Source: Bacteroidetes bacterium SW_4_67_19 (GTDB lineage: Bacteria > Bacteroidota > Rhodothermia > Rhodothermales > Salinibacteraceae). Taken from it: 32,452 nucleotides of DNA. Position numbers and translations under genes: made by a program. Numbering within the stretch: position 1 is the stretch's first letter; every line of letters begins with the position of its first letter. The notes below the pieces were generated by a model. It made no database searches. It was not told the DNA's origin and worked only from the letters and a program-made list of their open reading frames with translations. Of this stretch, positions 23,004 through 30,170 are shown one piece after another. Where the stretch lies: positions 1 to 32,452 of the forward strand of contig PXTX01000089.1 of the NCBI GenBank assembly GCA_003023275.1, given 5' to 3'.

Positions 23004-23062
23004 AGGTTGAAAGTTGACCGTTCCGACAGGTACCCCTTCAACCTTGTACTTTCAACTTGCGC
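23000..23062 (+). repeat. Heptad-phased dyad array, nine units in one register, from the thrS stop to just before the next start
   Basis: ttgaagg|ttgaaag|ttgaccg|ttccgac|aggtacc|ccttcaa|ccttgta|ctttcaa|cttgcgc. Confidence 0.9.
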
Positions 23063-24132: not shown

Positions 24133-24181
24133 TGGGGTTCTGGTTGAAGGGTTCGGGTTGACCATCGAACCATTCAACCAG
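24133..24181 (+). repeat. Heptad-phased hairpin just after a stop codon
   Basis: CTGGTTGAAGGGTTCG (24140-24155) pairs with CGAACCATTCAACCAG (24166-24181), 15/16 matches; ggttctg|gttgaag|ggttcgg|gttgacc units. Confidence 0.8.
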
Positions 24182-25224: not shown

Positions 25225-25328
25225 GGCCTGTCGGCCCGACGGCGGACCGCGGACGACAGACGGCGGTCCCCTTTCCGCAGGCGTAGCCGCTGCCGAACGA
25301 CAACCCTTCAACCTTAAACGTTCCCCCC
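25224..25328 (+). repeat. Two heptamer arrays spanning the rpmI-rplT gap
   Basis: After stop: aggcctg|tcggccc|gacggcg|gaccgcg|gacgaca|gacggcg|gtcccct. Before rplT: caaccct|tcaacct|taaacgt|tcccccc. Confidence 0.75.
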
Positions 25329-25709: not shown

Positions 25710-25750
25710 AAAATCCCGCTGCCGCCTCTCCGGTCGGCGGGGTTTTCTTT
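25710..25750 (+). terminator. Rho-independent terminator after rplT
   Basis: AAAATCCCGCTG (25710-25721) pairs with CGGCGGGGTTTT (25735-25746) allowing G-U, followed by CTTTG. Confidence 0.8.
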
Positions 25751-25842
25751 GAGTGAGTACGTTCGCCGACACGCGCTCTCGGGGCTTGGGGCGCTCTCGC
25801 TCCACGAGCACTTGTTCACTCGCTCACAGCGCTTTGTTCACT

Positions 25843-25912
25843 TCTGGGTCTTGGTTCTTGGTTGACCTATGATAAGACCCAGACCCAAGACCCAAGACCC
25901 AAGACCCCCTAT
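25843..25912 (+). repeat. Heptad-phased dyad array (CTTGGTT/CCAAGAC family), right arm runs into the pheS start codon
   Basis: tctgggt|cttggtt|cttggtt|gacctat|gataaga|cccagac|ccaagac|ccaagac|ccaagac|cccctAT(G). Confidence 0.92.
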
Positions 25913-26939
25913 GCCTGAGGCTCCAGACGCTGTCGAAACCCTCCGCCGCGAGATCGAGGCGGAGACGATAGAAAGCGAAGAGGAGGCGGAGGCCTTTCGC
26001 ATCGCCTACCTCGGACGCAAGCGCGGCAAGATCGGCGCGCTCTTCGACCGCATTCCCGACCTCGACCCCGAGGCGCGTCCCGCCTTTGGGAAAGCCGTCA
26101 ACGCCCTCCAGGACGACGCCCAGGCCAAGCTCGAGGCCGCCCGCGAGCGACTGGCCGACGAAGAGGGCGATGCGCTGCCGGAGCTGGACCTCACGCTGCC
26201 GGGCCGCCCGCCCGCGCCCGCCGGCTCGCTGCATCCGCTCGTCGAAACGCTCGACGAAGTGTCCGGCATCTTCGAGCGCTTCGGCTTCTCCGTCGCCGAA
26301 GGCCCCGAGATCGAAGACGACTGGCATAACTTCGGCGCGCTCAACTTCCCGCCCGACCATCCGGCGCGGGACATGCAGGACACCTTTTTTCTGGAAAAAC
26401 ACGAGAACGACGAAAGCGATGAGCGACTGGACGTGGTGCTGCGCACCCACACCTCGCCGATGCAGATTCGCGTGATGGAGGAGGGCGAGCCGCCCTTTCG
26501 CGTGGTCGTGCCGGGGCGCGTGTACCGCAACGAGGCGCTCTCCTACAAATCCTACTGCCTGTTCTACCAAGTCGAGGGCCTCTACGTGGACGAGGGCGTC
26601 TCGATGGGCCACCTCAAGCAGACCCTCGCCCTCTTCGCGCGCAGTTTCTTTGGCGACGACGTGCGCACGCGCTTCCGCCCCAGCTACTTTCCCTTCACCG
26701 AGCCGAGCGCCGAGATGGACGTGTGGTGGGAAACGGCCGACGGAGCGGGCCAGTGGATGGAAATCCTGGGCTGCGGCATGGTGCACCCCAACGTGCTCGA
26801 ACACGCCGGCGTCGACCCCGAACAGTACACCGGCTACGCCTTCGGGATGGGCATCGACCGCGTCACAATGCTGCGCCACGACATCACCGACATCCGCACG
26901 CTCTACGAAAACGACGTGCGCTTCCTGCGTCAATTTTAG
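25911..26939 (+). CDS. pheS: Phenylalanine--tRNA ligase alpha subunit
   Basis: 342 aa [16 protein letters not shown]...[22 protein letters not shown]...[12 protein letters not shown]...[11 protein letters not shown]...[16 protein letters not shown]. Confidence 0.97.
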
Positions 26940-27015
26940 GTCTTGGGGCTTTGGTCTTGGGTCTTGGTTTTCCGTAATCTGACCAAGAAACAAAGACCGA
27001 AGACCCAAGAGCGAG
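26939..27015 (+). repeat. Heptad-phased dyad array (GGTCTTG/GACCCAA family), 11 units in one register, starting at the last base of the pheS stop
   Basis: ggtcttg|gggcttt|ggtcttg|ggtcttg|gttttcc|gtaatct|gaccaag|aaacaaa|gaccgaa|gacccaa|gagcgag. Confidence 0.92.
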
Positions 27016-29566: not shown

Positions 29567-29570
29567 GTAG

Positions 29571-29619
29571 GACGGCGGACCGAAGACGGCGGACGGCGGT
29601 CCGTTCTCGTGGAACGTCC
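29571..29619 (+). repeat. Heptamer array (GACGGCG family) just after the pheT stop
   Basis: gacggcg|gaccgaa|gacggcg|gacggcg|gtccgtt|ctcgtgg|aacgtcc. Confidence 0.8.
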
Positions 29620-30030: not shown

Positions 30031-30053
30031 TGTTTTGGTGCTGTGGTGTTGTG
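30030..30053 (+). repeat. 8-nt array (GTGTTNNN family) starting at the last base of the stop codon
   Basis: TAgtgttttg|gtgctgtg|gtgttgtg. Confidence 0.8.
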
Positions 30054-30170
30054 GGAGGTCGAAGACATCGTGAGCGTGTGAAATCCGGCGCGGCGCTTGA
30101 CGTTGGTGGGGGCGGGCGCTTTCGCTATGTTGTCCTCGCATCCCTCCCCCGCACTCCCACCCCCGCACTC

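Follow-up and report, generated by a model that had tools for sequence, protein, structure and literature searches.

The window analyzed here is the whole 32,452-nt stretch of DNA, in which genes occur in the order thrS, an unknown gene, infC-like, rpmI-like, rplT, pheS, pheT, zapB-like and zapA, the infC and rpmI names having been assigned from position, without a family hit. Degenerate tandem heptamers lie on both sides of pheS, and their coordinates, along with those of other arrays in the window, are collected in Table 1. An earlier note on this DNA had claimed that a single word family brackets pheS and abuts both its start and its stop codon. This was borne out by the sequence, by TRF, which returned 7-nt arrays at 25874-25907 and 26939-26967, and by the number of matches to GGTCTTGGGTCTTG with at most three mismatches (12, compared to 2.29 expected and a maximum of 6 in 100 shuffles). 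The figures of "ten" and "eleven" units given for the two sides were too high, as they included loop heptamers; the actual numbers are approximately 2 + 4 and 4 + 4, in opposite orientation. Other gaps of the window do carry different word families, as had been stated.

Table 1. Features of the pheS locus and other heptamer arrays in the window.
Feature	Position	Strand	Evidence
GTTGAAG/CTTCAAC array pair in the gap 3' of thrS, with the architecture seen at pheS	23004..23059	+	
GGTTGAAGGGTTCGG / CGAACCATTCAACCAG hairpin of the same architecture	24139..24181	+	
G/T-rich 5' arm in the rplT-pheS gap, TGGGTCTTGGTTCTTGG, ~2.4 GGTCTTG units	25845..25861	+	sequence
Loop of the first hairpin (non-repeat part), holding an in-frame ATG at 25869	25862..25873	+	
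C/A-rich array, CCAAGAC, ~4-5 units, ending 2 nt 5' of the pheS ATG	25874..25908	+	
pheS, phenylalanyl-tRNA synthetase alpha	25911..26939	+	Pfam tRNA-synt_2d, Phe_tRNA-synt_N
G/T-rich array GGTCTTGGGGCTTTGGTCTTGGGTCTTGG, GGTCTTG, 4 units; first base is the G of the pheS TAG	26939..26968	+	
Loop of the second hairpin	26969..26979	+	
C/A-rich inverted arm, CAAGAAA CAAAGAC CGAAGAC CCAAGAG, 22 nt 5' of the pheT ATG (27038)	26980..27015	+	
zapB-zapA gap: G/T arm TGTTTTGGTGCTGTGG past the stop, C/A arm CCCGCACTCCCACCCCCGCACTC directly abutting the ATG of zapA, 7-8 nt units	30031..30170	+	

The first pheS hairpin pairs an arm at 25845-25861 with one at 25885-25901 (CCAAGACCCAAGACCCA) across a 23-nt loop, and in the second the array that begins at the pheS stop is matched by an inverted arm spanning 26980-27009. 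When folded as RNA, with dinucleotide shuffles as control, positions 25843-25912 gave -26 kcal/mol (z -4.17) and positions 26937-27015 gave -40.3 kcal/mol (z -6.62); the folding check proposed in the note was thus passed on both sides of the gene. On the minus strand, the array at 25874-25908 contains five runs of at least three G, constituting a G4-type motif. The in-frame ATG at 25869 lies in the first hairpin's loop, and its use would add 14 residues to PheS; starts of relatives agree with 25911 and argue for that position as the probable start. The exact 15-mer GGTCTTGGGTCTTGG occurs at a single site in the assembly and in 1 other of 27 genomes of the family, where it falls within a coding-like stretch. 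Neither pheS hairpin has a full-length copy in the 744 kb of genome read.

A search of the window against Rfam returned zero known RNA families. Between rplT and pheS, a terminator-like stem (TCCCGCTGCCGCCTCTCCGGTCGGCGGGGTTTTC) was observed at 25711-25752, and among 29 pheS loci from the order, 15 matched a strict pattern for it. By this comparison, it is the stem, and not the heptamer hairpin, that is conserved in the rplT-pheS gap. As for intrinsic terminators, defined by a stem followed by a U-tract, 3 terminator-like matches were found compared to 1.8 in shuffles, and the one falling in an array was internal to it.

Genome-wide counts were made on 744 kb of the 1.86-Mb, 62%-complete assembly, with genes called by a small codon-usage caller of our own. 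Identity in gaps at lags of 7, 14, and 21 nt was 0.313, 0.303, and 0.291, respectively, against a baseline of 0.271, and no such peaks occurred in coding DNA. Arrays numbered 183 at lag 7 and 79 at lag 8, compared to 8-30 at lags 4-6 and 9-11. The gaps that hold the 183 lag-7 arrays total 89 kb, whereas 606 kb of coding DNA yielded 51, a count equal to the lag-5 background (50). Of 341 arrays, 244 were at most 15 nt from an ORF edge (115 expected), and approximately 15% of edges bore one, with a similar density at starts (120/780) and stops (103/758). The pheS arrays are members of a class found throughout the genome, in which short, degenerate tandem repeats of mostly 7-nt and in some cases 8-nt units lie at ORF edges.

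Members of this class obey a polar rule. Within gaps, GT arrays were on the left versus the right in a ratio of 60:8 and CA arrays in a ratio of 8:54 (Fisher p 4e-19), with the same GT-left/CA-right polarity whether gaps were co-directional, convergent, or divergent. A gap of the form GT...CA keeps that form when read on the complementary strand, which makes the rule strand-independent. Expressed relative to genes, the G/T-rich strand leads away from the ORF. Up to 15 nt from ORF edges, 208 arrays kept the rule and 12 broke it, as compared to 48:35 farther out; counted by edge at this distance, the ratio was 120:0 for starts and 90:13 for stops. Arrays that leak into ORFs followed suit (CA 8:GT 0 in the first 90 nt; GT 7:CA 1 in the last 90 nt), and miscalled start codons were rejected as the source of the polarity because arrays inside ORF ends obey it. 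In gaps lacking strong stems the skew was weaker and of the same sign, so general gap composition could supply part of the signal.

The absolute polarity within 15 nt of starts, together with the tendency of CA arrays to end 0-9 nt before the ATG, would fit a UTR function of single arrays, whereby selection would favor C/A-rich unstructured leaders and G/U-rich trailers, either because they leave ribosomes access or as targets of a binder of the S1, Csp, or CsrA type. Such binders were proposed for the TAACTGA repeats, which lie within several nt 5' of starts (MacGregor, 2015; PMC4679880). We consider a UTR function rather unlikely, however, as the words change freely and thus offer no conserved protein motif, stops bear arrays as often as starts, the polarity is 20:3 in convergent gaps, which have no start codon, and one word is common to both arms of a gap.

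Because the G-skewed strand points off the ORF, arrays at the two ends of a gap are oriented toward one another, which allows them to form a hairpin. Stems scoring at least 11 were the best of their gap in 52 gaps, compared to 7.2 in shuffles, and in two congeners the corresponding figures were 27 and 2.6; lag-7 identity within stem arms was 0.53, versus 0.22-0.36 at other lags. The excess of stems and the pheS folds (z -4.2 and -6.6) are in keeping with a function in mRNA, where pairing of a stop-side arm with a start-side arm would couple translation, terminate transcription, or protect mRNA ends. When the heptamers of one arm were permuted, though, the pairing score of most hairpins was unchanged (for pheS-pheT, 15.0 observed and 15.4 permuted), showing no positional mirroring; strictly mirrored exceptions were L048:10358, which is clear, and a Hymenobacter hairpin at L172:4009. 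Each arm is thus a degenerate array of the common word rather than a mirror image of the other, unit for unit. Position-specific RNA pairing was accordingly rejected for most hairpins and, as the arms pair no better than unit-permuted ones, the hairpins look like by-products. Moreover, most array-bearing gaps have one arm only, divergent gaps also bear arrays, a U-tract is lacking, and the rplT-pheS gap has its separate conserved terminator-like stem. An mRNA hairpin function is, on balance, unlikely.

Dozens of words were seen, including GGTCTTG, GTTGAAG, GCGTGAT, and GTAGATG, many of them without G3 runs. Opposite arrays of the same gap had a mean 5-mer similarity of 0.26, compared to 0.077 for random pairs, and 36% of them reached at least 0.3 (7% at random). 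For arrays in adjacent gaps, the similarity was 0.11 and 10% of pairs reached at least 0.3, against the same 7%. The note's suggestion that word families cluster by locus thus held mainly within one gap; between neighbors the effect is weak, and strong clustering was rejected. In this respect pheS, with its word repeated in two adjacent gaps, is unusual. Arrays at different stops that were similar in register shared their stop codon in 90% of cases, versus ~42% otherwise, and the preceding codons were also somewhat more alike. For example, CAATTTTAG followed by GTCTTGGGGCTT is common to pheS and to an unrelated gene in L198. These patterns suggest that the ORF end may serve as the first unit or as microhomology, although array pairs are not independent of one another.

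Two congeners often show the same architecture in the orthologous gap, but with both arms in another word. In the pheS-pheT gap, the words are GGTGAGT in G002 and GGTGAGG in G001, and whole-word swaps of the same kind were found along a run of ribosomal-protein gaps (L074 vs. L257). Among 13 family genomes examined, 8 have a lag-7 array in the pheS-pheT gap, with differing words, and several others have none; words near pheS in other relatives include ACCAACA, GTATTCC, and GCGAAGG. The earlier note would have given up its reading if the folds were no better than shuffles and the word family were not conserved in relatives. The folds are better than those of the controls, yet the word is not conserved, and it is the architecture that recurs. 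An attenuator specific to pheS-pheT that sets the subunit ratio could account for the identical word on both sides of pheS, but it is barely credible given a class that is genome-wide, congeners whose pheS word differs, and family members without an array there. Regulation specific to pheS was rejected on the strength of the genome-wide class and the unconserved word, leaving a regulatory device for pheS and pheT in particular unsupported.

The array signal was strongest in this genus (z 28, 12.5, and 5.4), weaker in 100-kb samples of G006 and G025, and absent from 100-kb samples of G004, G005, G009, G020, and G029. Across 245 genomes of the class, GTTGAA pairs occurred at 5 convergent and 0 divergent loci, which is the expected direction with few cases. 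In distant Bacteroidota (Hymenobacter, Mucilaginibacter, Pedobacter, Flavisolibacter, and others), heptamer stems had more G than C in the 5' arm in a ratio of 10:1, compared to 28:27 for non-heptamer stems. The GT rule itself does not hold in these genomes, and the common denominator is G over C. In Hymenobacter jeollabukensis, the mirrored hairpin noted above (L172:4009-4142; AGGAGCTAGGAACCAGGAGTTAGGAGCTAG) is a near-perfect 33-nt heptamer stem that ends 1 nt from a gene.

One gap (L044:6534-6666 / L259:17611-17743) is 95-100% identical between congeners, compared to ~80% for the flanking ftsW/rodA-like and mur ligase genes, and its hairpin and loop are dispersed through the genome. The identity suggests either gap-centered exchange or strong constraint, and from the dispersed copies it appears that some hairpins, at least, move as units. 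Hairpins of the GTGGATGG word occur in several copies with a common loop (TTTTCGC...GCGAAAA). Both observations would be explained by mobile, REP/MITE-like elements with heptamer arms that insert at gene ends, and intergenic palindromes are indeed shared with REP/MITE families. Near-identical dispersed copies with common ends were, however, found in part for the GTGGATGG word and not for the pheS hairpins; most words and loops lack a full-length copy in the DNA read, and the arrays differ from REP/MITE in their internal heptamer periodicity, many words, and exact flushness with ORF edges, which insertion would not give at both edges. Mobile elements are therefore a quite improbable general explanation.

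The STRR heptanucleotides of heterocystous cyanobacteria are degenerate tandem heptamers in non-coding DNA, and to our knowledge neither edge anchoring nor strand polarity is part of their definition. The arrays found here are likewise degenerate tandem 7-nt units restricted to non-coding DNA, but the relatives here are Rhodothermaceae/Bacteroidota rather than filamentous cyanobacteria. Bacterial heptamer repeats have previously been described as over-represented, with no known explanation.

Closer parallels exist in the GGGNATC heptamers (GGGAATC type) of Xanthomonas and Nostoc. In the published account, these are intergenic and at most 50 bp from ORFs, occupying the non-coding strand when they precede an ORF and the coding strand when they follow it, and in Xanthomonas they often form convergent inverted pairs; three Calothrix heptanucleotides are also cited (Rehm et al., 2015; PMC4692102). 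Their strand rule is identical to the one met here at 120:0 and 90:13 within 15 nt, and in the array before pheS the non-coding strand likewise carries a G4-type motif. The words seen here differ from the unit itself (GGGNATC or GGGGA(C/T)T) and, by that account, there is one G4-forming word per genome, compared to dozens of words here, many of which (e.g., GTTGAAG, GCGTGAT) have no G3 runs and thus not the G-tracts of a G4-forming unit. Since words without G3 runs obey the polar rule, it cannot in general be caused by G4 formation. The rapid swapping of words in the same gap, as found here, is absent from the GGGNATC description to the extent available.

TAACTGA repeats, which occur in Beggiatoaceae, Cyanobacteria, and some Bacteroidetes, are described as arrays just 5' of starts, with one reversed right after a stop (MacGregor, 2015; PMC4679880). 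Heptamer arrays before starts and a presence in Bacteroidetes are thus shared, whereas that account concerns a single word, mainly in direct repeats, with related heptamers rarely repeated in the main genome studied, and, to the extent available, leaves a polar pair architecture unstated. The pheS word differs from TAACTGA, and only loosely similar words (e.g., CAGTTATC) were found. As far as these accounts go, GGGNATC and TAACTGA each fit the polar rule for a single word. Within a limited coverage of the open-access literature, we found no paper stating the rule across words, nor a mechanism explaining it, and a multi-word, edge-anchored polar rule looks new relative to the published single-word repeats. 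Because one rule is obeyed by dozens of unrelated words in one genome, the phenomenon is not tied to a particular motif, G-quadruplex, or binding protein, and formulating it as a G-skewed strand leading off ORF edges, with the same word at both ends and a new word per species, makes the cause testable.

As to that cause, G-rich units added at both ends of a break, by a telomerase-like, RNA-templated reverse transcriptase or in a Ku-dependent manner, would yield facing G-rich 3' ends with a shared word. Searches for RVT_1 and Ku, however, gave no match in G000, G001, and G002 (56-62% complete) or in the array-positive, 99%-complete G006 and G025; both were rejected as the source, and end addition of this kind is highly improbable. 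We tentatively favor an account, to which we give somewhat less than an even chance, in which a mutational supply of heptamer arrays is sorted by selection; UTR function, and after it hairpin function, are its serious competitors. New G-skewed words would continually be written into gaps by slippage combined with fold-back or template-switch copying at microhomology, a single event often giving both ends one word, and for some words whole hairpin elements may disperse as well. Purifying selection would halt arrays at ORF edges and purge those that place the G/T-rich strand before a start codon; the RNA hairpin would be mostly a by-product, and regulation specific to pheS would be unneeded. We prefer the mutation-selection account because periodicity, edge anchoring, polarity, word sharing within gaps, word swaps, and indifference to start or stop were all observed. 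As DNA itself has no mark of an ORF edge, the tight flushness of arrays and the absolute polarity at starts are as suggestive of selection as of mutation. The few strictly mirrored hairpins (L048:10358 and L172:4009) speak against the account, being what selection for pairing would give.

A bolder and unlikely reading is a putative, hitherto undescribed DNA-synthesis process in many Bacteroidota, and perhaps in Xanthomonas and cyanobacteria, by which G-skewed 7-nt words would be laid down from the two ORF edges of a gap outward, with a new word each time and the stop-codon region as the first unit. If true, it would explain edge anchoring, start/stop symmetry, the shared arm word, and the rapid turnover of gaps.

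Arrays of the GACGGCGGACCG type were also observed in the window at 25225-25275, past the rpmI-like gene, and at 29567-29605, past pheT, and this part of the window has short matches in many contigs of its own genome and of congeners. Dispersed intergenic repeats of 60-110 nt without heptamer structure occur at L085:7853-8192, L044:14752-15006, and L067:1608-2014, and these repeats, such as GCGCACCCCGGAGAGTACTTC... and GACCTGTCGGCCCCTCCCT..., are common to approximately 10 gaps.
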